Below, piece after piece: positions 3,727-60,834 of a stretch of 64,000 nucleotides of DNA; the stretch's first letter is position 1; the number at the start of each line of letters is the position of its first letter. The DNA is from Cephalotus follicularis. Its lineage: Eukaryota; Streptophyta; Magnoliopsida; Oxalidales; Cephalotaceae. The notes beneath the pieces were generated by a model. It ran no database searches and was not told where the DNA came from. It was given only the letters and a program-made list of their open reading frames with translations. The DNA is taken from assembly GCA_001972305.1 (NCBI GenBank), contig BDDD01000269.1, forward strand, positions 623,408 to 687,407. The letters run 5' to 3'. A program made the translations under genes and the position numbers.

Positions 3727-6700
3727 TCAAGCCCATACTAGCAATATGTCTCTTAAAAACACAAGGACGAAGGCCTTTAAGGGATCAGCTACCATATCAT
3801 CTGTACCAATATGCTCTGTCGTAACGTCACCATTCTTAACCTTTTTCTTGATGGTTAAGTACTTTATCTCTATGTGTTTAGACCCTATGATACATTTATT
3901 ATTATTAATAACCAACACAGCAGAACTGTTATCACAGTATAACCATATAGGCCTAGATACAAAATCAAGAACAGTGGATGTCCTCATAAAATTCCTGAAC
4001 CAAACTGCATGCGTAGCTGCTCCATAGCATGCTAGCTACAAACTCTGCCTGCATGATCGAAGAAGCAATCAATATCTGCTTTGCACTTTTCTAAGATATT
4101 GTCCCATCGGCCATCATAAAAACATAAACTGATATGGATTTCCTGTCACCCTGACAACTAGGAAAGTCTGAATCTGTAAAACCCACTAATTGTAGATCTT
4201 GAACCTGTCTATAAGTCAGCATAAAACCTTTTGTTCTTTTCAAGTATCGTAAGACCTTGGCAGCCACTCAGTGATCATGACCAAGGTTAGACTGATACCT
4301 GCCAAGAAATCCTATTGCAAAAGCAATATCCGGCCTAGTACATACTTGAGCATACATGATGCTCCCAACTGCACTAGCATAAAGCCACTTTCTTCATGGC
4401 TTCCCTTTCAACATCATTCTTAGGACACTGTAACAAGTTCAGCTTATCACATTTGAGAACAGGAACATTCCCTGGTTTGCAATCTAGCATGCTGAATCTA
4501 TCCAAATCACGATCAATATAAGCCCTTTGAGATAGACTTAACAGATAGCGAGAACGATCTCTATAAATCTAAATACCAAGGACAAAAGAAGCATCGCCAA
4601 TGTCCTTCATTTCAAACTCACTAGACAACATCTGTTTGGTCATATGTAGCATGCCTAGATCATTGCTTGCTAACATGATATCATCAACATAGAGCACAAG
4701 AATAATGAATTTACTCCCACTAACCTTGTGATATATATACGTTGATCCACCGGATTTTCTTTAAAACTGAAAGAAGTCACAACATCATCAAATCTGAAGT
4801 ACCATTGTCTGGAAGCTTGTTTGAGACCATATATAAACTTCTTGAGTCTACAAACAAGATGATCATTACCATCAACTGCAAAACCTTGAGGATACACCAT
4901 ATAGACCTCCTCGTCAAGATTACCATTTATGAATGCAGTTTTTACATCTATCTGGCGTAACTCCAAATCAAAATTAGCTACTAATGCCATGATTATCCTG
5001 AGAGAGTCCTTCAAAGAGACTGGAGAGAAAGTTCCATTATAGTCTATTCCCTCTTTGTGTGTAAATCCTTTGGCTACCAGTCTAACTTTAAACCTCCCAA
5101 CCTTCCTTTCGAAATCCCTTTTAGTCTTATAAACCTATTTGCAACCAATGCGTTTGTAGCCTTCAGGCAATTCAACAAGTTTCCAAACGTCATTATGTTT
5201 CATTGACTGCATTTCATCTCTCATGGCATCCATCCACAAATCTGATTAAGTACTAGAAACAGCATCCAAATAATTCAATGGGCCAATCACGCAACCGATA
5301 TCGTAATCACTCTCTCCCAAGTAAATCTCATAGTAAGGCAGTATCGCTAATCTCCTCTCATGAGTCAATCTCCTGACTGGAACTTCTGCTACAACATCCT
5401 ATGTCTGAGGAATATCTGCAGGAGCAGTATCAACAATGGGCTCCTGAACAACATTAATAACAGATGTCTGAACTTCAACATGTGCAACTACATGTGTAAT
5501 AGGCTCAACATTCATATTGGTGGGTAAAGAAAAAGACACAGTCGTCGTTTGATCTCTACTATTTTCAATGATTTGAGAACAATCACCCAGTTCGGCTACA
5601 TCAAACTTTAAAAAATTTGTTGTCTGTGACTCCAAAATTCTAGTACCTCCGTGGGGGTTATAAAAACGGTACCCCTTCGAATGATCTGGGTACCAACAAA
5701 GAAGCAATGAGTAAATCTGGAACCCAACTTAGTTAAATTTGGAGCATACAATCTCACCTATGCAGGACAACCCCAAACTCTAAGATGATTAAGACTAGGT
5801 TTACGTCCAGTCCATAACTCAAAAGGAGTAAGTGCAACCACTTTACTTGGAACTCTGTTAAGAATGTAAAGAGTTGTTTTCAAGGCTTCACCCCAAAGAA
5901 ACTCAGGTAAGTTTGTTCTGCTAATCATACTTATCATCATCTCCATAAGAGTTCAGTTACGCCTTTCAGTGACTCCATTTTGCTCGGGACTTTCAGGCAT
6001 AGTAAACCGAGCAACTATCTCACAATCCTCCAAGTATTTGGCAAACTGGCCCTTAAGCTGTCCAGCATCACCATGTCTGCCATAATACTTACCACCCCTG
6101 TCAGATCTAACCACCTTGATGACTTTTTCCAACTATTTCTCAACTTCAGTCTAAAAGATCTTAAGTTTCTCAAGAGCTTGAGACTTTTCCTTAATCAAGA
6201 ATAGATAACCATATCGGGAATAGTCATCAATGAATGTAATGAAATAAAAATTTCTGCATAAGGTGGCTGAATATTGTCCACTGATGTCCATATGAATCAC
6301 TTCTAATACATCAGAACTACGGAATGCCATTTTCTTCCTTATCTTGGTCATTTTGCCCCTACAACAGTCTATACATGTCTCTAGGTCACTGTAATCAAGA
6401 GTAGGCAGGATATCATACTTTATCAGCCTTCCCACTCTTTTCCTAGAGATATGTCCAAGCCTTTTATGCCATAACATGAAAGACTGTTCCTTAGGTAAGG
6501 GTCTTTTAGATGAAATGTTATTGACATTATAACAGACACAGATATCAGTGAGAGTCAAACACACTCTATAGAGTCCATGAGATAATGTGCAATGACCAAC
6601 CATATTTGAATTGAAAAAGAGATTAATCATAGAGTTCTTTATTTCAAATTCAATGCCAAGATTGTCTAACAAAGAAACATAAATTAAATTTCATCTAAAA

Positions 6701-6897: not shown

Positions 6898-7776
6898 TCA
6901 TGAACTAGATGTGGCTTCAGATAGATTGGATTCACAAACAAGAGCCAAAGAATCATTACCTTTATTCTCACGTTTGGCCAACCAAGTTTTGTACTTCAGA
7001 CAATCGTTCTTCATGTGACCTTTTTTCTTGCAAAAGAAACAGTGATCACCCTTTCTCTTAAAAGAAATATTATTTGGACCCATATTGTTAGATGGACCAT
7101 GTTCTTTAGTGGTTCCATGAGCAACTTTATTATTATAGATTTTGGGCTTATTACCTTTATGAGAATTCGAACTAGCAACATATAAGGAGACTTGGCCTTT
7201 CTCCTTCTTCAGATTTTCCTCCTCAGTAACGACCCTAAAAATCAAATCATTGATAGACCATGATTCATCTTGAGAGTTGTAGTTGGTCTTGATGATACTG
7301 AATTCAGGAGGAAGAGTATTCAAGGCTTGGTGCACAATACAAGTATCAGGAAGATCAACTTTAAGGGTCTTCAGTTTGGTCTGATAATCCACCATACGTA
7401 TAACATAGTCCCTAATCCCCCCATTAGCATCATACTTCATGTTGAAGAGTACTTGCAACAGAGACCCTATATCAGTATTCGATGAAATGCGATACCTCTC
7501 ACTGATTGCAGTCATCAATTCCTTAGCAGTGCAATCAGTCGGCAGGTCACTTTTTAGGTGATCCAAGATCGACCTCCTCATGGACAATAGGCAAATGCGA
7601 TTACTTTTCATCCAGACAGCATGCGCTGATTTCTCATCATCAGTACTAGCGACAGTCAAGTCCCCAGGTTTATCCTTAACAAGGGAAAGATCAACATCTG
7701 CCATTTCTATGGAAAACTCTATGTCTTCCTTTCACTTCTTGATGTTTGACCCAGTGAGGACCGTAATAGTTACCAT
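6898..7776 (-). pseudogene. copia gag remnant with CCHC zinc knuckle
   Basis: Gag is the capsid and nucleocapsid protein. The likely original start is the ATG at 7774-7776 (MVTITVLTGSNIKK). An in-frame TGA follows where the family has Trp (plus-strand TCA at 7732-7734), so the longest intact frame now starts at 7704 (MADVDLSL) and runs 268 codons. A UBN2/RVT-type gag domain fills the first 170 residues (DYVIRMVDYQTKLKTL). The nucleocapsid knuckle CFFCKKKGHMKNDC (C-x2-C-x4-H-x4-C) is intact near residue 222. Gag ends at a TGA immediately before the protease motif, again at a position usually Trp. Confidence 0.87.
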
Positions 7777-7876: not shown

Positions 7877-8841
7877 GAAAGTCTGCAGGCATCACCATAC
7901 AAACACCTTTGGGTGAATGCATGACATGCAGTTGCAAAACTTTTACATAGAAGTGGCCATGAGAATATAATCTAACCATCGATAGCCTATCACCTTTGGG
8001 TGTGTAGGCTTCCATGGCTAGTCAATTCCCAACCATATGCTCCATATATGTACCCTCTTAATTCTAATACATAACCACCTCATTTGGGCATATGATCATG
8101 CATAAGAATTAGAGAAATCCCACTGTTGTATGAGATAGATGTCACAAATCCAACTAAGAAGGTCACTTTGGTGACTGCATCTCGACCAAACCATGAAACT
8201 ATTTCATACAGGGATATACTTTATGTTACCCTCATCAAACCATAATGTGATTTTATAATGATAGACAAAAGGGGGCCTGAATTGTCCCTAAAATCACAAG
8301 TCATGCTAATTTCATTGTTTAAGTATCTTAATAATTGTATGATCGTGCATGTAATATCACAATACCAAAATATATTAATGCCTGTATGAGCATGTAAACG
8401 ACCAAGTATCCTTATGCACAATATATATACATATATACAGTGACTAAGCACTGAATGTTTTAGAAAACCGTCGACGCTTAAGGACTTAAACTTCGTCGCT
8501 TTGTATAAAGCGGGGGAGGTTACAAAAGCATCGACTGAAGCATTGGCGCTTTGCTTGAAAATCGTCGACGCTTATGGAAAACCGTCGACTGTCACAGGGA
8601 AACAATCGATGCTTAATGACCACAACGTCAGTGGTTTAGTACAGAGAACGCAACAATTGTTAGATGCATTTTAAGCGGCAATGCTTTAGAGGAAACCGTC
8701 GACGCTTTCGACGGAACTTTACGTTTTCAACTTAAAGCATCAAAAACGCATTGAACCATAAAGCAGGAGATTTTAAACGAACAGCCACATAAAAATCATG
8801 CATCTATTTCTTTAACTTGAATAGGATTTCAATTCTGATCT
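7877..8841 (-). other. copia 5' leader (untranslated region between primer site and gag)
   Basis: Non-coding sequence between the primer binding site and gag. Its 8462-8745 part holds a cluster of CGTCGACGCTT-like words (separate entry). The rest is ordinary AT-rich sequence. Confidence 0.6.
8462..8745. repeat. Cluster of CCGTCGACGCTT-type words in the copia leader
   Basis: About seven variants in 280 bases. They include AACCGTCGACGCTT (about 8466), ATCGTCGACGCTTA (about 8562), ACCGTCGACTGTC (about 8582), AATCGATGCTTA (about 8605) and ACCGTCGACGCTTTC (about 8695). They are irregularly spaced and centred on GTCGAC or ATCGAT, in otherwise AT-rich sequence. Confidence 0.75.
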
Positions 8842-9262: not shown

Positions 9263-10610
9263 TGTCACACCCCGCCTTTCGGTACTTACATTAGACAAGC
9301 ATATATGGTGATATCAGGAATAAGCATAATAATAATAATCCAGCATTCTCATTCACAATTCAAATACATAAGCGGAAGCAGTTAAAACTGGATTATAATA
9401 CATAAACCATCCGCACGCATCTCATACTACGTGCAGGTACAATCCAAGTAACATCCTTGTACATAAGGAAGTACAACAGTAACACGGAGTGTGATCCGTT
9501 CATTACAAAATATAGTACAACATCATCATTAAAATAACAACCTTAAAATAACAAAAGAAGCTCTCCAAGCTTCAGCAGCAGTCTCCAAATGTCCTTGCTT
9601 AATCTGAAATTGTAGGGGTTAGCCGTTGTCCTCACTTGGCTAAGTAGGAAGATAATGCATGCTAAGGAATATATGAATGCAACATGTATGACAGTTTATA
9701 TCAAAAATAACATTTAATATGCCAATATATGAGCAATCACGCCAAGTGGCCATAAACAATCCATATGCAAGAATACCGCACAATGGTACAATCAATTCAT
9801 CCCTCACTTGGGTGTCACATGTCGCTAACTCCTAGCACCAACTGTGCACCACCTATCTATCACCCTACGCTCCGAGGATAATAGATTAGGTAACACTTAC
9901 TACCGGCGTTGGCGGGTAGTTTAACAATCAATCTCTGCATTGCAGAACACTTGTGATACTCTGGACAACTCCTGGCACCCAGAATCACATTCCGTAGTCA
10001 GTGACAACCTCCGTCACTCAACCACGGCAATCATAGATAAACAGTACAAGCATTTCAATAATAATATTATATATATCGGCAATATGCAATAGAAAGTAGT
10101 TTTCTTTAAAAACTATGACAAATCACTTATCATACATCTCTTTGGAGGAAAACGATCTCACTCAATAGTGGTTTCCAGTTTAGGAAACAAAACAGTAGGT
10201 ACCTCTCATATAGGAGGAAAATCAATAATTCATTTGGCAATAATCATTCATTTGAAAATGATAGTTGATATCATAATTTGGGTACATAGCCCATAGTTGG
10301 TTTCAATCATTGAAATACAAGTGGTAGTGGTGTTAGAAGACACCAAATCAGTTTATACTAATATGACAGTAGCATATTCAATAACAATGTCACAAATCAG
10401 TAGTTCTTGTAATAAGAGTTTTCATTTGAAAATGGTGTTTAAAACCATGAATTGTACATATAGTACATAGTTCGTTCGATCGTTGCCATATAAGCAGTAG
10501 AGATGTTAAATAACATCAAACAGTATATACTATATGGTGGTAGTATATACAATTCATTAGCAATACAAAACAGGAGCAATTCAATCAATGTTATGCAATT
10601 TCTACCCAGA

Positions 10611-10670
10611 ACAGTCGAACAGTCGACTGTTTGGTTGAGTAGTCGACTGTTATGAAGAACAGTCGACTGC
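10611..10670. repeat. CAGTCGACTG palindrome cluster in LTR A
   Basis: Within 60 bases there are ACAGTCGAACAGTCGACTG, GAGTAGTCGACTGTT and AACAGTCGACTGC. The 10-bp word CAGTCGACTG is a perfect palindrome. The flanking text is homologous to the start of the array in LTR B (GAGCAGTCGACT near 59610). Confidence 0.85.
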
Positions 10671-10859
10671 TTCTGCCCAGAAATGTAGGCAGTAGCAGAT
10701 GATGCAGTTCAATGTTCAATTTCTAATGCCAATCAATCAATGCATCATACAGAAAATAAACATGCATGGTATGCATAAAATATCTTCCATAAACATGTCA
10801 TTACCCCTACCTCTGATTCCGAGTTAGGAATCGCAGTAGCAACAGCACAATCGAGCCGC

Positions 10860-11680
10860 AGGTTCAATTGCCGAACCTTTTCGATTATCGTTGAACCGAA
10901 CCCGGTTCTCGCCAATTGATCAATTCTTCAATGCCAAAACTAATTGCCACTCGCACACTGTACATACAACACATTTTCGTTACGTTCGACACACAAACAT
11001 TTTCGTCGCCGAAACGTCGACCGGATTTCGGCCAACTCATCCAGCTTGCGAAACACACATCAACGGGTTCCACATTGAACGATGTACGCAGAACCGGTCA
11101 AGACTCGCCGGGAATTGGTGCCGAACGTCGTGCCACGGCCGGTAGTGAGTCGTGACTCACTGAGTCAACTCGCCGGACCTCCACAGGTCCGATCACCACC
11201 CAAAAACGCCACACATTCAACAGTTATACACATCCCTAGCCGTGACTCGCCAAGACTCGGCGCCAAACGCCGTGTCTCAGGCGGCCGTGAGTCGACTCGC
11301 TGAGTCGACTCAGCCTAGTTATTTTGGCCGATTCCGGCCGAATCACGCCTCACCAGTGGTCAAGATGGCAAGAGCTAGCCATCTACAACAAAACCCAGGC
11401 CACCCGCGACGCTAACGACGCCGGGAAACGCCGGGAGGAGGCGCGCACAGTGACGGCAGTGGGGAAGAAAAAGAAGAAAAAGAGAAGAAGGGGGAGGAGG
11501 TTACCGTCGGTTGGAGGCCCTGGGTTGACCGGCGTGTTCTCCCGATCCGGTAGCTGGCTCCGGCGTCCTCTCCCGTTCTCTCTGTCGATCTCTCTCCCAA
11601 TCTCTCTCGCACTCTCTCCCTGTTGCAGGCGCACAGAGCGCCTGCAATGTTTTTGTTGCACGGGCGCGTGATGCACCCAT
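10860..11680. other. GC-rich block of LTR A
   Basis: Unlike the AT-rich surroundings, this block is GC-rich and CpG-rich. It repeats GACTC/GAGTC words, including TGAGTCGACTCGCTGAGTCG near 11287-11310. Several frames are open on both strands only because stop codons are rare in GC-rich DNA. The peptides match no family and are not called. On the minus strand, the inferred sense, it would lie in the transcribed leader. Confidence 0.5.
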
Positions 11681-11695
11681 GTGTATCTCTCACTT

Positions 11696-11705
11696 CCTTT
11701 ATAAT
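11696..11705 (-). promoter_or_regulatory. Candidate LTR A promoter (TATA box)
   Basis: The minus strand reads TTATAAAGGAAG, followed downstream by GAGAGA-rich sequence. The position about 290 bp inside the minus-sense start of the LTR fits a U3 TATA box. No experimental evidence. Confidence 0.4.
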
Positions 11706-11995
11706 TTTTGCTTCCCCCTTAGTATTTTCTGGTAAAATACTAAGGTACAGGTCCCGATTTTTCCGCAAATCGCGACATAAATTATCCAAACGACCACCAA
11801 AATAATCGCAATAAAAATACAAACATTTGGGCTTTATTGTCGCGCATTAAAAATAGATTTTTATTAGCCGTCTTAGCTAACACGATTACGCCTTAAATGC
11901 GTAATACCTTTTTATTACTCCAACTCTATCGATTTTATTGCAACTGTACACGTACCAATTTCATAATAATTATTTATGAAATTCGGGGCGTCACA

Positions 11996-22203: not shown

Positions 22204-22807
22204 TTTTTCAATATCAATGAAATACAAAGCTTCTTGCATCTCGGATCTTTTTTTATGTTCTTTATTTCTTGCTCCGTATGCTTGAACTCCATTCGAATAT
22301 TTCCAACTCCCTTAGGGTAATTGAATGTAAGTAATAGGACGTGTGCTTCCTTTGAGCATCATTGTTCCCTTTGGAGACTTTAGCTTAGTGTAACTTAAAG
22401 ACTTTATGTTATGGACTTACAATTTTCAGACCTAATTACCCAAACTTTCAAGTCCCCTTAGGACACCTTATTTCAAAGGCGCTTAGGCAATAATACTTAG
22501 CCTTTGCGAGTTCCTGCAGATCAAGTTTTAAGTCTGCTTGGACAAGTTATTACGGGTTTGTCGAGCAGGATCTCGTCTAGTCCATTATATTCTAGACTAG
22601 GTCGTCTGAGATTGTAGCCCTCATAGGGACACTTATTTCAAAGTGCTCAGTCCAACGAACTTGATCGTTGCGAGTTTTTATGGATTCGCCTCTCAAGACA
22701 CGATTTTGTTTGGTTGGACAAGTTTTTTGTGGACTTTCTGATCAGAGATTGCTCCCTTGGGAGTCTTATTACTTCCTTAGAAGTCTTTTGTATATATACT
22801 TTTAGGT
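22204..22807. other. Non-coding region of the gypsy element between aORF and satellite
   Basis: It contains scattered TCCTTAGG and CTCCCTTAGG words but no open frame. It would be 3' untranslated for both the aORF and gag-pol. Confidence 0.5.
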
Positions 22808-23115
22808 GCTCCTCAAAAGGAGTCTTAGGTTGTAAATTTTAATGCTCCTCAGAATGAGTCTTTAGCGTTCCTCGGAAGGAATCTTTGTTGCTCCTCAGAA
22901 GGAGTCTTTAGCTTTCATCAGAAGGAAACTTTGTTGCTCCTCGGAAGGAGTCTTTAGCGTTCCTCGGAAGGAAACTTTGTTTCTCCTCGGAAGGAGTCTT
23001 TAGCGTTCCTCGGAAGGAAACTTTGTTGCTCCTCAGAAGGAGTCTTTAGCGTTCCTCGGAAGGAAACTTTACTGCTCTTCGGAAGGAGTTTTTAGTGCTC
23101 CTCGGGAGGAGTCTT
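22808..23115. repeat. 23/46-bp tandem repeat inside the gypsy element
   Basis: About 13 half-units of 23 bp alternate between two forms, GCTCCTCAGAAGGAGTCTTT+AGC and GTTCCTCGGAAGGAAACTTT+GTT, making 46-bp higher-order units. The first copies (22808-22842) are more diverged. Each half-unit contains a hairpin-like CTCCTNNGAAGGAG or TTCCTCGGAAGGAA. It lies between the end of integrase and the aORF. Confidence 0.9.
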
Positions 23116-23633
23116 TATGATTGCTCCATTGGGAGCATGGTCGGACAAGCTTGTGTTAACACTTGTCATTTGAGAGAGTTGATCGGTGGCTGTTCAGAGG
23201 TTTGAGGACATGAACATTGGGTCTATGGTCCCTTGTAAACTTGGAACTATGATCTTGAACGCATTTTTGAATAAAAAATTGCACTTTATTGATGTCTTTC
23301 AATGTATAACTTACAATAGTCATTGGTAATACTTTCTTAGATGCTCAGAATTCCAAGTTCTAGGAATTTCCCTACCCCCCAGAGTTTCGAGTTTGAATGT
23401 TCCTGGTGGAGCACACTCTTAACCTCGTAGGGTCCTTCTCAATTCGGGGCTAATTTTCCTTTGGTACCAGTCGGGTCTGCAATAGCCGAGTTGCGTAGGA
23501 CTATATCTCCTTCTCTTAGTGGTCGAGGGTTTACCCTTTTGTTATAATAACGGCTCACCCTCTATTAGTAGGCTACAACTTTGATGGTTACCCTTTCTTT
23601 GATTTCTTCTACTAAGTCGAGGAGGTTCCTCAA
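23116..23633. other. Spacer between tandem repeat and integrase
   Basis: The minus-sense continuation of the integrase C-terminus may extend to about 23400 in broken frames (GIQFEKDPTR-like text read by eye), but no clean open frame was found. Confidence 0.35.
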
Positions 23634-30750: not shown

Positions 30751-30905
30751 TAGGGACATGATAACAGGCACAAAGAATGATAGATTTAAGAACGCCAAAT
30801 TGTTTTTAACCATTGGATTTTAATGATAAAAAATGGATGGTTGAGATTAAAACTCGCAAAAAGGAGCGCAGCGCTCATTGCTAAGGCGTCGACAGATTAA
30901 AAATA

Positions 30906-31590
30906 GGTTTCCTAGTCGGCTCCTAGGTCTGCTCATCATAGTCGGTTCCCAAGTCTGCTCAACATAGCTCAGGTCTGCTCAATGCTCAATGCTCAATGCT
31001 TTCCTAGTCGGCTCCTAGGTCTGCTCAACATGGATCAGGTCTGCTCAAAGAAGGTATTGAGCAAGTTTGCTCATCATAAATTTTCTAGTCGGCTCCCAGG
31101 TCTGCTCTGTTTAAAAAGCGCCAAAACGTTTTTGGTCGTTAGATTTTAATAAGAAATGATGGACGTCCCACAATGCTTTCTCTCAAAAGCTACAAAACTT
31201 TAGACCAAGTGGGAAGTCAACATTTTATTCTCTCTTCTCTCAACATTGCTCAACATAGATCAGGTCTGCTCAAGGAAGGCATTGAGCAGGTTTGCTCACC
31301 ATAGATTTCTTAGTCAGCTCCAAAGTCTACTCTACTCAAGGAAGGCATTGAGCAGGTCTGCTCATCATAGGTTCCCAGGTTTGCTCATCCCAGGTCTGCT
31401 CATCATAGATTTCCTAATCGGTTCCTAGGTCTGCTCTGTTCAAGGAAGGCATTGAGCAGGTCTGCTCATCATAAGTTTCCTAGTCGGCTCCGAGGTCTGC
31501 TCCTCCCAGGTATGCTCCCATTTCTGCTCATCCCAAGTCTGTTGATCCCAGGTCTGCCTTTCTTAAGTATACCTGATCTATATTGAGCAG
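30906..31590. repeat. Irregular array of CAGGTCTGCTC words
   Basis: About 20 copies of CAGGTCTGCTC or close variants (AAGTCTGCTC, CAGGTTTGCTC). They are mixed with AAGGAAGGCATTGAGCAG and TTTCCTAGTCGGCTCC. Spacing is irregular, about 20-70 bp. The pattern resumes in inverted sense at 31986-32140 beyond the inserted MITE (GAGCAGACCTG). Confidence 0.85.
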
Positions 31591-31985: not shown

Positions 31986-32360
31986 TAAGTATGTTCTATG
32001 GTTAGCAGACCTGGAAGCTAACTAGGAAAAGCATTGAGCATGTTCTATAATGAGCAGAACTAGGAGCTGAGTATGAAACCTATGATCAGCAAACCTGCTC
32101 AATGTCTTCCTTTAGTAGACCTGGTCTAGGTTGAGCAGACCTGTGAGTGCATTATCAAAACAGGCGGTGCATTTTATTTGAACTGTCGTTTTAAGCGCAG
32201 CGCTCATTTTAGAAAATGAGTGTTGCGCTCTTTTTTGCGAGTTTTAATCTCAATCATCCATCTTTTATAATTAAAATCCAATAAAAACAATTTGACATTT
32301 TTAAATGGGACGCCGTTATTTGCGCTTCCTATGAAAATCCTATATATATATATATATATA

Positions 32361-50163: not shown

Positions 50164-50356
50164 TATAATGTGACCCGAATTCCCTTTTTGTACTGTTCAT
50201 GTATATTATGCGCCGTATTGTACTGTATTGAATTGTATCGAACTGTATTGTATTATACTGACTTGAAATAAGTATATATCTATTGGTTATAGTATGAAAC
50301 GTATGCATGTATAGTCGGAATTTTTTTGGACTGAGTATCTGAGAGATGGTGAATTG

Positions 50357-50366
50357 ACTATATAAT
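50357..50366 (+). promoter_or_regulatory. Candidate LTR C promoter (TATA box)
   Basis: ACTATATAAT lies about 190 bp inside the LTR, followed within 40-90 bp by a CT-rich leader-like stretch (TTCTCTCATTTTCGCTC). Confidence 0.4.
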
Positions 50367-50875
50367 TCAATTTCTCACAATTTTCTCTCATTTTCGCTCT
50401 ATCTTCCACTCTCTCTACACTTCTCCTCTCTCCATAGCTGAGTAATCTCCATAGCAGCTCTGGATTGGCCTTCTCCATCAATAAAGATAGCATTTGCAAG
50501 TTGTAGCATACCAATTGAACAAGAAAAGAGAGTGGACTATTGGGAATCTCCGGCTTTGATCGATTGTTTGTTCAACCGTTAAAACTGCTATAATAGGTAG
50601 GACTTCTTACTTGAATTGCCTACAGCTTGTATGGATTGATTGATTGAATTGCATAATTAAATGAGTATATTGAGTGAAATTGTAGGTTTTAGGGTTTTTA
50701 TTAAATCCTTAGCCAAATTGATATAGAAAATGATAGAATTTGTAAATTGAAGGTAGTAACTTGTTTTACTAACCTTAAATGATTGATTTTAACACTTGGT
50801 TTTCAAAGAATGGGTTTTAAAGGGTTTTTGACCTGAGATTTGGCTATTTTTCTACATAAAATCGACTATGCCTAG

Positions 50876-51195
50876 TAAAGACATCGATCCCCAGCCCATG
50901 GACATCGATGTCTTTTGCTTGAAATGCAACATCGTTGATTTCTGCAGCAAAGACATCAACGTCTTTCAAAGACATCGACGTCTTTGCCCAGGATTTCTCT
51001 TCTTTGAAGAAGACATCGATGCGCATTTCCAGGCCATTTTTGATGAAACGCGTCGACGCCTTTGTCCAAGGACATCGACGTCCTTAAGCCAGATCTCTAT
51101 ACAAATAGAGAAAGACATCGATGTCCTTCTACAGTTTTAAAGAATTGCCTGAAACGCATCGATGTCTTTCGCCATAGACATCGACGCCTATAGTG
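50876..51195. repeat. GACATCGATGTC palindrome cluster in LTR C
   Basis: About 11 sites in 320 bases. Examples are GACATCGATGTCTTTTGC, GACATCAACGTCTTTC, GACATCGACGTCTTTG, CGCGTCGACGCC and CGCATCGATGTCTTTC. The core GACATCGATGTC is a 12-bp palindrome. The word is often followed by TTTG or CTT. Spacing is irregular. Confidence 0.85.
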
Positions 51196-51569
51196 CATAA
51201 TGGAATTTTAACTGTTTTAAAGCTGGTTTTCAACTCCTTTTCACATTGCCGCTTGACCGGAGCCTCACTTGAGGTATTCAAGCGTTTGAAACACAGTTTT
51301 CTATGGTTTTCAAAGATTGGATTGATAAATTGATAGAGTGACGAAGTAAGCCATAGGTAGGGTTGCAAGGGGTCCGGGCCGGGCCGTGCCGTGGCCAGGA
51401 CCGGTCGGGACCAGCGACAGGCGGTCTGGTTCTTGAACCGGACTGCTTTTGTCACGGTCCGGGCCGGTCCGGTTCATGGAGCTAAAAAATAAGAACCGAA
51501 CCGGCCTGTGAACCTTAACCATGAGTGAGACACGCCGATCCGGGCTGGTTTGGGCCGGTTCGGTTCATA

Positions 51570-51800
51570 TTCACGTTGACGCGTATGTATGACATTGACG
51601 CTAATGTCATTTGAGCTGTTATGCGTCAACGCTGTCTTATGACTATGATGAGGAGGAATGTTTTTCATCTTGTGCGTCAACGCTATCTATTAGCGTTAAC
51701 GTCATGTTTTTGGTCTACGATGACGTCAACGCCTATATCGTCTGTATCAAATGGTACATGATAAGCGTCAACGCATAAGTTAGACGTCGATGCCTACGGG
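51570..51800. repeat. GCGTCAACGC word cluster, left block of the hAT element
   Basis: About eight variants, in both orientations: CACGTTGACGCG, TGCGTCAACGCT, AGCGTTAACGTC, GACGTCAACGCC, AGCGTCAACGCA, GACGTCGATGCC. Confidence 0.85.
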
Positions 51801-51932
51801 TCGAGTATATAATACTCTGTGCGTTTTCGTCGACTCTTACTTGTTTTGGCGTTGAAATCCCTAAATTCCCTCTCTCCACTTTCTCTAAAATCCGATCCCT
51901 AAACCTAAAAATCTTGAATCTTTTCATTCACT

Positions 51933-53093
51933 ATGCCGAAGACCAAGCACTTATCAGATGGAGGGAAGCTGTCTGCTGGTCAGAGATACAAGAGCTCTTA
52001 TGGTGGGAGAAAAGTGCTATGTGGAAGGACTGTTGATTTCTCCTTCACTACAGGTGATAAGTATAATCTAGAATAATGGTTTGATGTTTTAGGTTGGAAA
52101 GATTACTTTACGATTAATACTCCATATTATATAGAATATGTTAAAGAATTTTATAGCAATTTGAGTAATGTAGGAGATGATTGCAATGATGTTTTGGAAT
52201 TGAAGACTAAGGTTAATAGAGTAGTTATTAAGTTTGATGATAAGATTTTAGATCAGATTTTGAATGTTCCTACTGCTGGATCAAAGTATTTTGAAACTAA
52301 GAAATGGTCGGAGGATCCGGAATTAGTTTTGGAGGATTGTCTTAGGGTGTTCTACCCTAATGAGAATGTTTTTGGAGGCATGGCCAAGCCTACCAATATC
52401 CTTGGTGTTGAGCATAGGCTGCTCCACCACATAACTGCCACTCACATTCTACCTACCTCCGGTGGGCATGAAAAGATGAGTTACCAAGACTTGTATATTA
52501 TGTGGCACGTTGTGACTGGTAAACCATTGAACCTACCTCATTTAATCATGAAGAACATGTTAAGAGCAACTTCTAAAGTTGAAGGTGCATTGCCATATGG
52601 TATGGTAATCACCAAGATTCTCTCTCACTTTGGGATAGTGTTTGGGAATGAAGTTGCATCGAGGCTAGATGTTGGGGACATCTACAATGCCTCTTCCTTG
52701 AAGAGAATGGGATGGAAGAGAGTGTTTGATTCTGAGAAAGGTGTTCAATGGCTGCCCAAGGAAGGTGGAAGAAAAAGAAAAAGAGTTGAAGGTGAAGGAG
52801 ATGGGGATGTTGAAGAGCAAGGACAAGCTCAAAGAAAGAAGCAAACCCCTGCACCACAGATGCAGCAAGGTCAAGCAAGTAGCAGCAGCAAGGCGTCTAC
52901 GACCATGGATCTTGTGGCGTATTATCTGAAGAAGTTGAATATCAAGATGGATAATTTGAGAGGGGAATTTCTTGACCTCTTTGACGATACACATAGAAAA
53001 CTTAGAAGACTGGAGAATGAGATGATTGCCAAAGGTCTTATTGAAGCTGGTGACCTCTCCTTTTCGGAAGAAGAAGAATCGGAAGAAGAATGA
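51933..53093 (+). pseudogene. Putative plant transposon protein (Transposase_32-like), one nonsense codon
   Basis: A single frame of 386 codons from ATG 51933 (MPKTKHLSDGGKL) to 53093. It is interrupted once by TAA at 52074-52076, after DKYNLE. The longest uninterrupted part is 52161-53093 (310 codons). The globular part (FYSNLSNVGDD, NRVVIKFDDKILDQILNVP, LRVFYPNENVF, LLHHITATHILPTSGGHE, DLYIMWHVVTGKPLNL) resembles the 'putative plant transposon protein' domain (Pfam Transposase_32). That family has unknown function and is usually found in retrotransposon-related ORFs. It is followed by a basic stretch (GGRKRKRVEGEG), a Gln-rich linker and a C-terminal helix ending in SEEEESEEE. Presence inside a hAT element suggests capture. 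A damaged accessory gene is the alternative. Confidence 0.7.
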
Positions 53094-53659
53094 GGAGATA
53101 ATGTGAACACATGATTCATACATTGCATTTTCTATTTTTAAACATTTGATTTATATCATTTGTAAAACTTTTGTTTTGTATCAAATTTTCAGTTATCTGG
53201 ATGTTATATTATCATATTACATACTTGATCTTATATATGGTTATGATAAGATGTTTGTGTAATGTGTATGCCTATGTTTTTAAGAGTATGTATCAAATGT
53301 TTTTAAATTGATATCATATATGCAAAGGTTATGTTTGACAGTTATGCATCAAATGTACCCGTAGGCAAATGTTTGACAGTTATGCATCAAAGTATGTATC
53401 AAATGAAAACAATTTTATATATGTTATGCATCAAATGTTTGACAGTTATGCATGAGATGTTATATATGTTATATATGCCTATGGGTATGTTTGAATATCA
53501 AGATGGTATAAATTGATATCATATGTGCATCAAATGTTTGAAAGGTTATGTTTGAAAGGGGTAGAGTTAGGGTGGAAAGGTTATGCTTATGTTTGGAAGG
53601 AGTAGAGTTATGTTTGACAGGTAAAATTGCAAGTGAAAACAAGTAATATGTGCATTCTA
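53094..53659. other. Non-coding spacer with repeated TATGCATCAAATG words
   Basis: About ten copies of ATGTTTGACAGTTATGCATC or parts of it (GTTATGCATCAAATG, GTATGTATCAAATG) lie between about 53290 and 53560. It forms an irregular tandem repeat downstream of the plus-strand gene. No ORF of note. Confidence 0.65.
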
Positions 53660-54065
53660 TCTTATTGGCGTCAACGACTATATCTTAGGCGTCAACGTGC
53701 TGGGATTGAATATGAGTTTCTGGGCTTTGGAAGATGATCTTCGTCAACGCCTTTAATGATTGATGTCGACGTGCTGGGAATTTCATTATCCCCGTCAACT
53801 CCTTAAGTAAGACGTCAACGCAAAAAGGTGAAACGTCAACGCCTTAAGGAAAACGTCAACGCCAAAAGGTGCAATTTCGGACAGTAGCTTTGGACGTTAA
53901 CGTTAAGCAGTTTTAGCGTCAACACTTATGATTAAAACGTCAACGCCATTTTTAGAAGTCAACGCAGAAGAAAGCACAATGCGAACTTTAATGTTAACGC
54001 GAAAAGTAAAAGGAGTCAACACAAATGACATCCGCGTCAACGCCATACTTATGCGTCAACGTGAA
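53660..54065. repeat. GCGTCAACGC word cluster, middle block of the hAT element
   Basis: About 16 sites, nearly all in the same orientation (AACGTCAACGCC, GACGTCAACGCA, GGCGTCAACGTG, CGCGTCAACGCC). It includes the stretch GGTGCAATTTCGGACAGTAG at about 53870, which recurs in inverted orientation in the right block. Confidence 0.88.
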
Positions 54066-54154
54066 TAAAGATATTTAGCATTTTGAAAACAAAACATCAA
54101 TTGAATTCAAGAAGATCATAGTTTAATATTTGAACGTTAAAAAAACATCAAAAG

Positions 54155-54340
54155 TTAAGTACATATTAAAAAAACAGCCAATTCTTCTTCCGATTCCTCT
54201 TCTTCAGATGAGGAGATGTCATCAGCAGCTTCAATAATTCCTTTGGCAATCAACTTCTTCTCAAGTCTTCTTTGTCTCATGTGTTGATCGTCAAAAAGGT
54301 CAAGAAACTCCTTTCGCATATGGTCCATCTTTCTGTTCAT
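54155..54340 (-). pseudogene. Inverted copy of the C-terminal tail of the plus-strand transposon-protein gene
   Basis: The minus-strand frame reads KMDHMRKEFLDLFDDQHM, then RRLEKKLIAKGIIEAADD and SSSEEEESEEE. The plus gene ends KMDNLRGEFLDLFDDTHR, RRLENEMIAKGLIEAGD and SFSEEEESEEE. About 60 residues are shared. It lies in frame order just after the transposase stop, so it may be read as a broken extension of it. No other part of the plus gene was found on this strand. Confidence 0.85.
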
Positions 54341-54367
54341 CTTCCTCGAATTCTTGGCGATATAGTT

Positions 54368-54705
54368 TTATTCGTCATTACTACCGCTATATTCGTCTAT
54401 AATATTTTGAATCCTCCTATCTTGAACGATCCAATCTTTCAAGCAAACACAAATCTCCACTGTTTCTGCTTTCAACCGCCATCTTCTCTCATCTAAAACC
54501 CTACCACCTGCAGAAAAAGCAGATTCGGATGCTACTGTGGACACATGAGCCGTTAGTATATCACGTGCCATTATAGAAAGAATTGGATAAAAAGTATGTT
54601 GTTTTTGCAACCATTGTAAAAGATCTAAGGACGCTCTATCTTCTTTATTAATGAACTAAATATTAGTATTAAGGTAATGTTGTAGTTCAGTATTTGTATT
54701 AACCA

Positions 54706-54750
<45 letters not shown>

Positions 54751-56521
54751 CAACTCCATAAGCAATTCTATCAAAGAAATCTATGGGATCATTACCACTA
54801 CTACTAACATTTTCTTGATATTAATTTCCAACACTATATTTTTTAACATATGTATCAAATGCATCATGTAACAATTGAGTAATCTCATTACCATCTAATT
54901 GTATTGGATTACCTTTGCTTATGCATATTTGACATTTGTTTGCAATGAATAACATACCTTGTAATTTTATTTTATGATCCATTATAGCAACCAAACAAAA
55001 TAAAGGTGGAATTGTTTCCTAATATTTTAGGAATTTTTCTTCCATCACATCACAAATATCTATAAAATTATTTTTCACCCTATATTTAGCAAAAACTTCA
55101 CAAATTTTTCACAATTTACCAACGACTAAATTTGTAGTAATATAATAAGAACCAGAAAATAGATCAGTCAATTCTTTAAATTTTTCTAAAAATTGGGTCA
55201 TAACATAACAAGTTGTCCAATCTCTATCAGATATTTCAGAATAAGAAGAATATGCAGTCATGTGCATACCTATGAATGTATTTATTGGTAATCTAAATTC
55301 ATAAGCACGCAACAACATTTCATAAGTGGAATTCCACCTATGTGTCACAACATGTACCAAATTTTTATATTTCAAACCACATTCATTACAAAGTTGTTTA
55401 AATATTTGTTTTCTTACACATGATTGGGCTATAAAGGTAATAATAATTGTAATTTTTTGTACTTGTTCTCCAACAAAAAGTCAACCATCTTGAACAATCA
55501 AATTAATAATATGACATACACATCTAACATGAAATAATTTATCATTTAATATGGGATAAAAAAAACCTCTTAACTGTCTAACAGCAGCATCATTATTAGT
55601 AGCATTATCAAAACTAATAGAATTTTTTTTCTCAATTCCAAACTCACGAGTTGTTTCTATTATAGAGGTAGCTATATTGTGACCGGTGTGAGGATAATCC
55701 AAATTTTTAAATGCAATAATTCTTTTTTGTAATAACCAGTTTTCGTCAATATAATGTGTAGTTATACAAATAAAACTTTTCCTCGTGCTTGTGCTCCAAA
55801 CATCAGACATGAGAAAAAAAGTAGAAATATTTGTAAAAGAAGAAATTAATTTAGCCTTGTGTTATTCATAAATAATAAGACAATCACTTTTAAAGGTAGT
55901 TCTTGAATATAATTCCACTTGAGGATTAAGTCTTTCATGTACTAGATCACGGAAAAAAACTGAGTTAACATGGGAAAATGGTAATTCATTACCTATAATA
56001 TAATAAACTAATTTTCTTTTATAATTTTCATCGGTAAATCTAAAAGTAAGTAATTTATCATCACCACTGACCTGGCTAAATTGGAGTTGGGTTTGGCCCG
56101 AACCTTTAACACCATGTTGTTCCAAGCATTTTACTAAATGCCTCTTATAAGTTTCCGTACCACCCCCACTTGTATAAGCATAATCCTTAGTCTTACATAC
56201 CTTGCAAAAGACTCGTTTCTTCCCATTCCCGACATCTCTAACCTCCATGTGCTTCCATATGCCGGATTTTTGTTTCCCCCCTTTGTTAGGATCGTTCTTC
56301 TCGGATTGTAGGGATGTTCCACCGATCGCAGCATCCGATGGCGTATCTTCATCCAAGTCAAAAAATTTATCACCAGGTGGAGGAGGTTGTTGCGTCATGT
56401 GGGCCATTTGGTCGTCGTCAGAAGGAAGTTCCACATCCGCCAAGTCGAACGCGGTGGTGGATGTAGAACCCACCTTCTCGGTCCTCCTTGCTTGTTTCCT
56501 TGCTCTTGATGTTGAATCCAT
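54368..56521 (-). pseudogene. hAT transposase remnant (BED zinc finger and hATC dimerisation domain)
   Basis: The frame starts MDSTSRARKQARRTEKVG at 56521. A BED finger lies at about residues 105-150 (VFCKVCKTKDYAY, YKRHLVKC). The RNase H-like catalytic region follows in shifted pieces: 55810-55481 (SISFDNATNND with the catalytic-type Asp; VRCVCHIINLIVQDG) and 55375-55109 (VTHRWNSTYEMLL). The hATC domain (54610-54368) reads YPILSIMARDILTAHVSTVA, SAFSAGGRVLDERRW and LKDW. Frameshifts and stops separate the parts. A TAC microsatellite at 54705-54751 lies in the hATC-proximal region. An intact enzyme would bind the TIRs and subterminal repeats and cut the element out. Confidence 0.9.
54705..54751. 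repeat. TAC trinucleotide microsatellite
   Basis: About 15 TAC units in the broken transposase coding region. Confidence 0.95.
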
Positions 56522-56799
56522 TATAATTGAAATATGTAATTAACTAATAATTAAAAAAAAGTAAGATGATAAATTATAAAAGTTAATACACTATAAGGCA
56601 GTGTAGTACAATAAAGCTCTATAATTTTGACAAAAATTGATTACACTGTTGATTGTTGTTGTTCTTCAGTGATTCAACCTTTATTTATAGCCTTCATATC
56701 GAATATAGCTATTAGAATCATCTTCTAGCCGTTGGAATCACTTTAGGAAAATGAAATCTCCATTAAAAACTAGCAGTTATTTTTGTCTGTTTGATTTTC

Positions 56800-57150
56800 C
56801 ATCGACGCTTACTCTTAGCGTTGACGTCAATGACCTTGTGCGTTAACTCCAGTGGTTATTCGCGTTGACTCCATTAGCCGCTTTCTGATTTTTGCTTCAT
56901 TCACGTCGACGTCTTTTAATAGCGTTGACTCGAATTTCATTTGTGTTGACTCAATTTGCCTTATGCGTTAACGTCCACAGCTACTGTCCGTTTTTCGCAC
57001 CTTAGGCGTTGACGTCTAAATATTGGGGTTGACGTTTTCATATTGGAGTTGACGCCAAAAATACAATTCCCAGCGCATTGACGAGGATCATCCTGAATCA
57101 ATTCATGTTGCAGCCCTCAACGTTGACGCCAATATCCTAGGCGTTGACGC
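56800..57150. repeat. GCGTTGACG word cluster, right block of the hAT element
   Basis: About 14 sites in the orientation opposite to the middle block (GGCGTTGACGCC, AGCGTTGACGTC, ATGCGTTAACGTC). The reverse complement of about 56960-57020 matches 53850-53910 (GGACAGTAGCT, TGGACGTTAACG). Confidence 0.88.
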
Positions 57151-57353
57151 CAATATCACGGTCTGGTCCAGTTCACGGTCCGGGCCGGTTCAACGGTTCC
57201 TGACACCATGAACCGGACCGGACCGCATTGCCCGGAACGGTTTAACCATGAACCGGCCACTTGGCACACGGTCCGGGCCGGTTCAAGGCCCAGACAGGCC
57301 GGTCCGGGCCGGTTCACGGTTTTAACTGGTCCACTTGCAACCCTAGCCATAGG

Positions 57354-58131
57354 CGACGATCCAGTGACTTTCATCAACCGGATAGACATTCCTTCCTATC
57401 TCGTTGATTTGATTGTCACCGTCTATTGGCTACTGATTGATTGAGCCATAAGTGTTGTGAGTCTAAGTTCAGAACGTTGGACCCTCATTCCCATTTCTCC
57501 ATTAGACATCACCACTTATCGGCATTGTACTGACAGATTGATTGTTTATATTGTGTGGATCCTATAGAGTGACCTTATGACCCGCATCGACATGTTAGGT
57601 TGTCGACTTTGTCCACCTATTTTGTCGATCGCGTCATTTATTGTATTGATCTGCTGACGAACAATACTGTTACTGATTGACGATTGATGCTCTCGGAGGG
57701 TCGTAGCTCCCTAACGGTATAATAGCTCCCCCATGGTTGTAGCTCATCGATACTGTATTGACCCCACCGTAGGCTGGAAGACCTATGAGTCCCAAACCTG
57801 ATCAGTTTGAGACAAATGGGTAGATCTCCCACCCTTTTCGAAGGACTACCTTCCGTGGGATTGATCATTGCTACTGATTGACACTGTACTGACCGAGGTC
57901 GCATGCTCTATAGGATATGATTGATTGATTGGGTGTTTGATGCACCACCACTGAGTGTCTATCATTGATTGATTGTTATAGATCCTATCCATATGCTCTG
58001 TTATGGGCCAGTGACATACGGATAGTAGATCACAAATTGTATTCATGCATTTGCCATATCATGCATTGATATTGTACACTGCTCATTTATATTGCATAAA
58101 CTGTCACCGATATTGCACACTGTACATGCAT
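57354..58131 (+). other. Central segment of LTR C
   Basis: Non-coding sequence between the two insertions, rich in GATTGATTG and TATTGTA words. It is continuous in style with 50600-51350 and 62593-63042. Confidence 0.5.
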
Positions 58132-58969
58132 TGTAATGCCCCAAACCCCAAGGGTCAACCCCAAGGTTTGATGCGCTATGACAGTACCATTCATTACCAA
58201 TATACAGCGGAATAAATTTAAAACATTTAAAACAATACAATGCATGCGGAACAGTCCAAATGAAATATCACTCATGTGGATAAAACTCAATGTTATACAA
58301 TATAGTCATAAATAAAGCTCTGCCACAAGTCGACAGGTCATAAAACAAAAATACAATATATTTATACTCCTGTGTCATCGACTGCAATAAGAGGGAGGAG
58401 ACTCACCCGGGACTTCAATCCTCAGCTTGCTGCGAAGCTTCACCTGTACCTAACCCATTACATTCAAATGAAATGGGTCAGCGACCACTGATCGTGTAGG
58501 AACTACCACCATGCATTTATGAATGCAAATGCAGCAAGCATATGCAATGCAAATGAGATGCAATAATAATAGTACAGTATAACACTTCATTCATTCGCTA
58601 CTAGCAGTCAATAACAGTACGATCCATTCCCTATCATTCCTTAACAGACATTCATTCCATAACAGTCCTCAACAGTCATTAACAGTTACTGACAGTCATT
58701 CACAATCATTAATCGTCATAATAAATCCTTCCTCGGCATCCCCTACTAAAGTAGGAGCAATAACACACTCCAGACGTTAAGGCAGAGGAGCAGGGATAGG
58801 AATAGATATTTCATTTTAGGCAGACTGGTTCCTCGGGTTTTAGGAAGAGCAATATACGCGCTCTAGGGGTAACAGGCCGATGAGAGGAACATAAACATTA
58901 TACAGTGTCAGTACCAATCATTCAGTACACTATACAATAATAATAACATTAACAGTAACAGTCAGTGTG

Positions 58970-59166
58970 GCTCATCTCGGTCGGTGATCAGTCGGCTCAT
59001 CTCGGTTGGTGATTCGACGACTCATCTCGGTCAGTGATCCATTGGGCTATCTCGGTGATCCACCAGGCTCAACTCAATTGGTGATCCTTTATCTCATCTT
59101 AAAGATAGCCTTACCGGCTCATCTCGGTCGGCGATCCCGTAGGCTCATATCGGTTGGTGATCCTGT
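58970..59166. repeat. Tandem repeat of about 30 bp, GGCTCATCTCGGTYGGTGATC
   Basis: Six to seven diverged units share CTCATCTCGGTCGGTGATC. The cleanest are at about 58972, 58995, 59022 and 59109. Confidence 0.85.
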
Positions 59167-59559
59167 ACACTACAATACATTATACTACACTACATTAACA
59201 GTACACTAATACTACATTGAGTGAGATCTGCCTTTATCATTTATTTACACTACATTTACCAATTTTTCTCTACAATTATTATCACTATAAGCACTACACT
59301 TATCACTGCACTTATCACTGAAGCATTCATTTCCCTATATTTTATCATTTCCCTTTTTGCAATAGTCGTTACTCACATAATATAACAATTTATACTTTAA
59401 AGCGTGTTGGCCTTTGCCACCCCGTTAATTGCCTTAACATGTGTTATTTCAATGATTAACAAACATGTAATACCTGTATGCATAATTCTCTAAGCTATCA
59501 ATTCATATACTCACTTGATTTAATGCCCAAAGTTGTGCAAAGGTTAATTCTACAGATAC

Positions 59560-60200
59560 AGGCAAAAACAGCCGACTGCCCAGGTTGGACAGCAGACTGT
59601 TTCGGTTGAGCAGTCGACTATTTTGATTAAACAACCGACTGGTTCTTGAAGGAATCCCAGCAACTGCAGGTATACTCCACACCAGCCGATTGCATCAGGG
59701 GAGCAGCCGACTGCCAGGTCAAAACAGCCGACTTCCAAGGAGGTCCAGTCGACTGTCAAGTGTGTCAAATTGAGGCAGTAGGATTTTGAACTCCATACCA
59801 CCTCAACCAGCGGACTGAAGCAGGACACCAGTCCACTGTCAAGGCTCACCAGTCAACTGTCAACATATCCAGCCGACTGTCAAGTGTGTCAAATTGAGGC
59901 AGTAGGTTTTTGAACTCCATACCACCTCAACCAGCCGACTGAAGCAGGACACCAGTCGACTGTCAAGGCTCACCAGTCAACTGTCAACATCTCCAGCCGA
60001 CTGTCAACAAAATTTGCAACATTTGGCAGTAGCTTTTTGGAAGTCCAATCCACCTCAACCAGCCGACTAGAACAGAGCACCAGCCGACTGTCAAGCCCCA
60101 CCAGCCGACTGCCCAGAGGAAGCAGCCGACTGCCTTCATCTAACGGCTATATTTGAAAAATGCACCATCAACTCCGGCTAACTGCCCAGGAAATCCAGCC
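59560..60200. repeat. CAGCCGACTG / CAGTCGACTG array in LTR B
   Basis: About 18-20 copies of CAGCCGACTG and variants (CAGTCGACTG, CAACCGACTG, CAGTCAACTG). The palindromic form CAGTCGACTG is the same word as in LTR A. Part of the array is organised as a 124-bp tandem repeat. Confidence 0.88.
59747..60118. repeat. Tandem repeat of 124 bp (three units)
   Basis: TGTGTCAAATTGAGGCAGTA begins at 59761 and again at 59885. The text between is nearly identical (ACTCCATACCACCTCAACC). A third, diverged unit follows from about 60009. Confidence 0.88.
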
Positions 60201-60239
60201 GACTGGATTGTGCCAGACATTCAAAAATAGATCCGTTGG

Positions 60240-60795
60240 AGCACATGTTTAGAAGCAAAAGTGGAGCATTCTTCAAAGAAGTTCAAGCAATCAAGTTGGA
60301 TAATCATTCAAGGCAACTCAAGCATCATTCTAAACAATCTCAACACCAAAAGAAAATATATTGAAGCAATTTCACACATTACAAAGCCTCCCCTTTATAC
60401 TTTCTCAATCATTAGAAGCTTTGTTAGAGTTGAGCTAAACTGTAAACAAATTCGTTGAGAATTTGTAAACCATTCAAACACTTTCAAATTTACTTGTAAA
60501 CAAGAGAGGTTGTCTCTTGTATAGCTCGGAAGGAGCAAACCTTGTATTTGCTTGGTTGAAGTGAAAGTCGTTGATCGGAGTTTCAGGCCCGGATTAGGGC
60601 ACACTAGTGAAATACTCAAGGGGAGGCCTTGAGGAGTGGACGTAGGGGGTTTTCCCAACCACTATATATTTGTTTGCAACTCTCTCAACCCTACACTCTT
60701 TAAATTTCCGCATTTGAGTGATTGTGATTAATTTGTTTCTAGGTTATTGCTAGTTTAATTTTATAAGTCTATTCNCCCCCCTCCTTCTAGATTTC
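60240..60795 (+). mobile_element. Possible copia LTR fragment inside LTR B
   Basis: The end of this segment (AAATTTCCGCATTTGAGTG, then TCTATTC, a C run and TCTAGATTTCCTACA) resembles the 3' end of several plant copia LTRs. The part before it reads like a transcribed leader. No TSD or left boundary could be set, so this is tentative. Confidence 0.35.
60775..60775. other. Ambiguous base (N) before a C run
   Basis: The only undetermined base in the window, in ATTCNCCCCC. It marks an uncertain homopolymer. Confidence 0.99.
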
Positions 60796-60834
60796 CTACA
60801 AAGCGCACTGTTTACTCTTTTGCGCACTAGCACC

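Follow-up and report, generated by a model that had tools for sequence, protein, structure and literature searches.

In maize, the TnpA protein of the Spm element binds clustered 12-bp subterminal sites and is linked to demethylation, and the enhancer repeats in the long terminal repeats (LTRs) of Tnt1, Tto1 and ONSEN are bound by host factors. VANC proteins of VANDAL elements, according to the accessible portions of two reports, target clusters of motifs that lie in non-coding regions and differ between families, and the VANC6 motifs also occur in the unrelated element AT9TSD1 (PMC5735166, PMC10398659). Retand LTR retrotransposons carry antisense open reading frames (ORFs) with a Transposase_28 (TRP28) domain as well as tandem repeats (PMC11963269, in the part available), and the available part of a study of sunflower Athila elements describes an additional ORF (aORF) with a Transposase_32 domain and a predicted nuclear location (PMC11728184). 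What antisense additional ORFs do in plant retrotransposons is 'yet unknown' according to the available excerpt of a review (PMC7264820). Here we describe clusters of CpG-bearing, palindrome-like words in a 64,000-bp stretch of the Cephalotus follicularis genome (contig BDDD01000269.1, positions 623,408 to 687,407; hereafter the window), which are carried by hAT, Ty1/copia and Ty3/gypsy elements and three of whose variants, in copies sampled from the genome, follow the clade of an accessory protein with a Transposase_32 domain (T32, PF20167). The match suggests that a T32 protein recognises the words and thereby keeps the element that encodes it active. In our literature searches neither these words nor any T32 target came up, a result that does not in itself show absence from print.

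The words are present at the positions given in an earlier note on this DNA, which had described dense words with GTCGAC, GTCAAC or ATCGAT cores at six sites. GTCGAC occurs 24 times in the window against 4.45 expected (about 5-fold, reached by 0 of 100 shuffles) and GTCAAC 56 times against 25.9 (about 2-fold, top shuffle 37). ATCGAT shows no window-wide enrichment (18 copies against 15.4 expected, with 28 of 100 shuffles reaching 18) and is clustered solely in one LTR, termed LTR C, where 5 of the 18 copies lie within 50883-51163. When 10-mers were required to have a TCGA-like core, a CpG and four or more of five dyad pairs, a scan of the window returned 60 words, compared with a shuffle mean of 32.4 and a maximum of 49 in 200 shuffles, and the densest 350-bp cluster holds 8 such words where shuffles reach 4 at most. 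When each site was tested locally, the counts in the leader of a copia element, in LTR C (7 words) and in LTR B (12 words) were reached by 0 of 500 shuffles each; LTR A and the left block of the hAT element gave fair results (1 and 3 of 500, respectively). The middle and right hAT blocks are weak by the palindrome criterion (36 and 24 of 500) and therefore rest on the non-coding density of GTCAAC/GTTGAC and on helical phase. Apart from these two weaker blocks, window-wide shuffled controls fall short of the observed densities; the earlier note had named similar densities in such controls as a refutation.

The word clusters are far more extensive than the window. In the whole assembly (1,577,397,061 bp, 9,746 contigs) we counted 197,377 copies of CAGTCGACTG (control, the same letters in reverse order, 939), 73,186 of GCGTCGACGC (control 121), 18,108 of AAGCGTCGACGCTT (control 15), 12,263 of AGACATCGATGTCT (control 15) and 40,524 of GCGTCAACGC (20,366 and 20,158 per strand; controls 325 and 365, together 690). 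In a random sample of 20 stretches of 10 kb at fixed genome positions (200 kb; N runs present in 3 of the 20 fetched stretches), the most frequent 10-bp palindromes behind two AT repeats are GCGTCGACGC (16 copies, 0.01 expected), CAGTCGACTG (10, 0.08 expected) and ACATCGATGT (7, 0.18 expected), and a word cluster occurs in 16 of the 20 stretches by a loose rule, or in 14 of 20 when dialect-type clusters are judged by eye from the listed words. With or without a mechanism, a 10-bp dyad that exceeds its control count more than 200-fold in a genome of 1.6 Gb demands an explanation. Two scans of viral contigs for paired words yielded 16 loci, none with more than three exact words in the DNA available, which we read as chance (GC content at least 0.57 in 15 of them and 0.40 in one).

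The words are symmetric dyads, uniform within clusters and in phase with the DNA helix. Of all 16 self-complementary 4-mers that can form a core, only TCGA, besides TATA/ATAT, shows arm symmetry well above chance in the 200-kb sample: mirrored arms flank TCGA 48 times against 14.8 expected, and the next best core, ACGT, reaches 16 against 11.0. The conserved unit is a 10-14-bp dyad whose arms vary, and we named its variants dialect I (CAGYCGACTG), II (AAGCGTCGACGCTT), III (AGRCRTCGAYGYCT) and IV (GCGTCAACGC). Neighbouring words agree in dialect in 129 of 131 pairs, with 73.9 expected if mixed, when typed by dialect I arms versus the R-C-R arms of dialects II-IV and with 110 of 300 words set aside as matching neither type; the view that each element has its own consensus thus holds for the words that could be typed. 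The words had also been described as irregularly spaced. Their spacing instead tracks the helical repeat of about 10.4 bp. The commonest distance between nearest neighbours is 19-22 bp, with 54 of the 144 spacings of at most 130 bp and 37 of 63 among 100 listed positions of CAGTCGACTG in C1, which holds a copia element from the first genomic loci for this word. The distances between all pairs have a period of about 10.2-10.3 bp with a strength of 0.356, where the highest of 500 jittered sets is 0.19, and a second, broad component near 24.5 bp is nearly as strong (0.345). For the hAT words alone the period is 10.45 bp, matched by 0 of 1000 jittered sets; in all these phase statistics related copies add non-independent pairs. 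Dyad words in helical phase suggest that protein dimers sit side by side on the DNA.

The dialect found upstream of a T32 gene is matched to the clade of the protein. The three clades, hAT-type, copia-type and L011-type, are only 25-33% identical to one another, and because they have diverged so far the match does not reflect one copied block. Dialect IV stands upstream of 19 of 20 hAT-type genes, dialect I of 7 of 8 copia-type genes and dialect II of 16 of 21 L011-type genes; dialect I is found upstream of 0 of 20 hAT-type and 0 of 21 L011-type genes, and dialects II or IV upstream of 0 of 8 copia-type genes. Random 530-bp windows contain dialects I, II and IV at 3.3%, 4.7% and 2.7%, and the regions upstream of Transposase_28, used as a control accessory gene, in 0, 1 and 0 of 12 cases. 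Dialect I was scored as five exact variants, dialect II with up to 2 mismatches in 14 and dialect IV by four variants in either orientation. The hAT-type genes are 20 of the best 150 T32 matches taken at even rank steps, the copia-type genes 8 hand-picked from 150 matches listed, the L011-type genes 20 of 148 matches chosen to cover the span of identities, with the L011 gene added as the 21st, and the Transposase_28 genes 12 of 150 matches listed, mostly chosen for long open frames. Together with the window ORF, 53 of 74 listed ORFs were aligned and scanned, those in N runs and some in overlapping frames being excluded.

Further observations on these genes concern the words themselves and the proteins. 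By the loose rule, the hAT-type sample has 60 words in the 700 bp upstream (24 for a reversed-core control, about 21 expected from 20 random 700-bp windows) and 2 in 550 bp of coding sequence (control 12), and most sampled copies keep words upstream of T32; the earlier note had named their loss from other copies as a sign against its observation. Alignment columns within words are better conserved than the rest in copia-type genes (0.965 versus 0.920, with 1 of 472 shifts equally good) and in hAT-type genes (0.893 versus 0.842, 34 of 536 shifts), and CpG columns score 0.930 and 0.870 within words, compared with 0.853 and 0.783 outside. The copia element of C1 has a gag (PF14223, E 5.1e-24) and no recognised pol. 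Dialect I words occupy each of its two LTRs, which are 96% alike over an aligned length of about 0.7 kb, and a further set precedes the ATG of the element's broken T32 ORF by about 120-300 bp. At L011, dialect II words precede the T32 ATG in the same dialect as in the copia leader of the window. A C-terminal heptad helix in the hAT-type and copia-type proteins (0 of 300 shuffles each) fits a dimer. The number of dialect I words is what about ten thousand elements would give if each had two LTRs and one internal cluster, a figure of the same order as the 11,544 first-look T32 candidates, which is arithmetic and not evidence.

Within the window, the T32 gene belongs to a hAT element (51358-57345, no strand assigned), identified as such by its 12-bp terminal inverted repeats (TAGGGTTGCAAG/CTTGCAACCCTA), an intact 8-bp duplication of the target site (GCCATAGG, at positions 51350 and 57346), and a hAT dimerisation region. 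The T32 ORF (51934-53093, plus strand) has one in-frame stop at 52072, and its open part (52077-53090) passes the curated Pfam cut-off with 97.8 bits against 45. The decayed transposase (54371-56539, minus strand) ends in the dimerisation region (54371-54655, PF05699, Dimer_Tnp_hAT, E 3.7e-24), its three upstream pieces giving weak Pfam matches only, below the cut-off. The two genes are convergent, as in all 44 T32-transposase pairs within 6.5 kb of each other among the best 150 of 13,073 T32 and the best 150 of 1,751 hAT candidates; 42 of the 44 are separated by 1.7-2.5 kb. GTCAAC/GTTGAC falls in non-coding DNA in 27 of 28 cases, this DNA making up 2,446 of the 5,988 bp of the element. The left block (GCGTCAACGC, dialect IV; 51575-51830, plus strand, 4 of 5 GTCAAC on plus) precedes the T32 ORF and the right block (56820-57150, minus strand, 9 of 9 on minus) the transposase, each oriented along the gene that it precedes, and the middle block (53670-54065, plus strand, 13 of 13 on plus, with spacings of 19-21, 51-52, 57 or 63 bp) lies between them. 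Past one stop, the transposase frame continues into a coiled-coil and acidic tail (54158-54367, minus strand) with 57% identity over 49 amino acids to the T32 C terminus.

The other word-bearing elements are LTR retrotransposons, so that unrelated classes, hAT (PF05699), Ty1/copia (PF14223, RVT_2) and Ty3/gypsy, do carry the words, as the earlier note had stated. LTR C belongs to a Ty3/gypsy element (50170-58131, plus strand) that is interrupted by the hAT element and, from 58132, by another element; at the genomic locus L024 the same LTR lies downstream of gypsy RNaseH/integrase coding DNA without the hAT insertion. Its dialect III cluster (AGACATCGATGTCT type, 50880-51190, unstranded) follows a TATATAA box that lies at 50359. 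LTR B is a solo SIRE-like Ty1/copia LTR (59405-60800, plus strand) with an intact 5-bp target-site duplication, AAGCG, and a 124-bp tandem unit; its copia nature follows from alignment to C1 with its copia-type gag. The same alignment places its dialect I cluster (59569-60205, unstranded) in U3, since in the SIRE-like LTR of C1 the words occupy C1:4552-4895 and TATAAAAGG follows at C1:4939, past the last word. LTR A is a solo LTR (9263-11995, minus strand; intact 5-bp duplication GTCTC) with words at 10620-10669 (CAGTCGACTG) and 11289-11311 (GAGTCGACTC), its strand being deduced from its terminal motifs together with a TATA-like box near 11700. In the leader of the Ty1/copia element (gag 6901-7731, RVT_2 4673-5134), dialect II words (GTCGACGCTT) span 8468-8705 on the minus strand, and in the gypsy element of L018/L095 the words are located after pol and before the 3' LTR. 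A tandem array of units of about 155 bp flanks a gypsy element (L095 1676-5000, L018 2001-2155).

The words had been placed downstream of the TATA box and hence in the transcript leader. This applies to LTRs A and C, with TATA-like boxes assigned by eye; it does not to LTR B, with words in U3, nor to the hAT blocks, which lie before both genes and between them, and the leader position is not general. The position relative to the transcription start varies by element and the non-coding location is constant, which argues for a role at the DNA level. A general RNA role in packaging or structure was rejected on the same positions.

Other arrays were seen near accessory genes or elements. Dyad-type TGCTCCTCRGAAGGAGTC words recur every 23 bp at 22743-23138 in a Retand-like gypsy element, downstream of its Transposase_28 ORF (PF04195, at 19862), and are perhaps another accessory-gene dialect. 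GCGTGACGCTTCGA-like words, which are not TCGA-class dyads, are repeated before Transposase_28 ORFs at L096 and L097, and AGTCGGCTCC / CAGGTCTGCTCA words are dense at 30886-31590 and about 31990-32140 in an apparently non-autonomous element.

Binding by an element protein, one of several roles that the earlier note had considered, is now the best reading of the words, as T32 clades predict the upstream dialect. We consider it somewhat better than an even bet, judging from sequence, that the words are sites of an element-encoded DNA-binding protein, T32 in three lineages, with an anti-silencing action like that of VANC. Dyad words would be read by T32 dimers aligned on one face of the helix, the dialect following the clade, with words directly before the T32 gene and in the LTR or other non-coding blocks of the same element. 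Binding would activate the T32 gene and its element and, by analogy with VANC in VANDAL, may keep the non-coding regions active and free of host silencing by methylation. With dialects that are private, the effect would be limited to elements of the same kind, and elements without T32 may carry the words and use T32 in trans. More tentatively, and with somewhat less than an even chance of being right, we propose private cis/trans address systems, in which T32 clades of DNA transposons and LTR retrotransposons each read their own CpG dyad dialect, hundreds of thousands of words mark the elements that each protein wakes, and the hAT transposase, whose frame is followed by the T32-like coiled-coil tail, may join T32 directly on the arrays.

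Several observations weigh against a T32 role. The independent sample is three clades and not 49 genes, as copies within a clade are related by descent. The dialects are not fully private: near-matches to dialect II occur upstream of 5 of 20 hAT-type genes, dialect IV occurs upstream of 1 of 21 L011-type genes, and the dialect III-like ACATCGAYGT recurs amid dialect I words in C1 and upstream of 4 of 8 copia-type genes (L066, L068, L069 and L070). The sole positive Transposase_28 upstream region, at L105, has three dyad words. In the hAT-type alignment the words (0.893) are barely better conserved than their 10-bp flanks (0.874). Outside the hAT type the domain assignment falls under the Pfam cut-off, with 39.4 and 27.4 bits for two copia-type pieces (E 7e-10 and 4e-6) and 38.7 bits for an L011-type piece (E 1e-9); the L011-type protein has no heptad signal (210 of 300 shuffles reach its score), and a single-sequence structure prediction of T32 was uninformative, with a predicted local distance difference test score (pLDDT) of 37. 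The 200-kb sample contains a single T32 locus and far more frequent word clusters. Finally, the fetched portions of dialect III gypsy elements (L018 with L095, L024, L026) yielded no T32, and no accessory ORF was recognised at L018/L095, so that for this dialect another protein, or the protein of another element in trans, must be assumed.

Host transcription factors could instead have been recruited, the words being stress-response enhancers gathered for induction by the host. GTCGAC, GCCGAC and ATCGAC match RYCGAC, the DREB/CBF site, GTTGAC contains the W-box-like TTGAC, and the words of LTR B lie in U3, the usual place of known LTR enhancers. We regard this as unlikely, since ATCGAT in LTR C and GTCAAC in the hAT element lack the RYCGAC core, one factor does not explain a 10-14-bp dyad with dialect-specific arms, and clusters lie hundreds of bases downstream of the TATA box in LTRs A and C and between convergent hAT genes; in addition, the T32 clade predicts the dialect. 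An element protein other than T32, such as an undetected accessory protein, an integrase or a transposase, would account for the dialect III clusters in which T32 was not found and for hAT words near both ends, where transposase sites usually lie, with T32 merely riding in word-bearing elements. Integrases, however, act on element ends and not on internal arrays, and the words are concentrated just before T32 in three clades, compared with 1 of 12 Transposase_28 genes, which makes this alternative rather improbable.

A protein-free origin, by passive tandem duplication or slippage of short units or through RNA-level signals such as packaging or dimer loops, appears very improbable. Longer tandem units such as that of LTR B indicate that some words were duplicated, and related copies inflate all counts; yet exact dyads are enriched more than 200-fold, their arms covary by dialect, they keep helical phase and they are retained above other columns, and words upstream of the TATA box and in a DNA transposon oppose a general RNA signal. 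If T32 reads the words, one accessory family would acquire a concrete task open to direct test, with its target sequences already predicted; element proteins with an anti-silencing action would have been invented repeatedly in different classes of transposon; and the dialects would be ready-made, mostly distinct DNA addresses.

Compared with Spm TnpA, Tnt1, Tto1 and ONSEN, each a single family, the words form a genome-wide set of dialects across classes. The Athila aORF shares the Pfam domain and its setting in an LTR retrotransposon with the T32 genes described here; the part available of that study mentions no target sequence or word array for it (PMC11728184). Retand likewise combines, within one element, family-specific repeats and an accessory ORF proposed to bind DNA. 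It differs in its domain, the accessible text gives no link between repeats and protein clades (PMC11963269), and 11 of the 12 Transposase_28 upstream regions sampled in this genome are without dialects I, II and IV. The closest parallel is VANC of the Arabidopsis VANDAL elements, which are Mutator-like elements (MULEs): in the accessible reports it too is an accessory element protein with clusters of short non-coding motifs that differ between families. Here the protein family is T32, the words are CpG dyads in helical phase, and the elements are hAT, Ty1/copia and Ty3/gypsy, not MULEs with a VANA-type transposase. DUF1985, the VANC domain, was not found in four T32 pieces in a Pfam scan at E<=10, in which the HMMER filters drop most matches above 0.1, leaving room for a remote link. 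As T32 has no DUF1985 match and the elements are not MULEs, the system described here would work like VANC without being a member of the VANC system.

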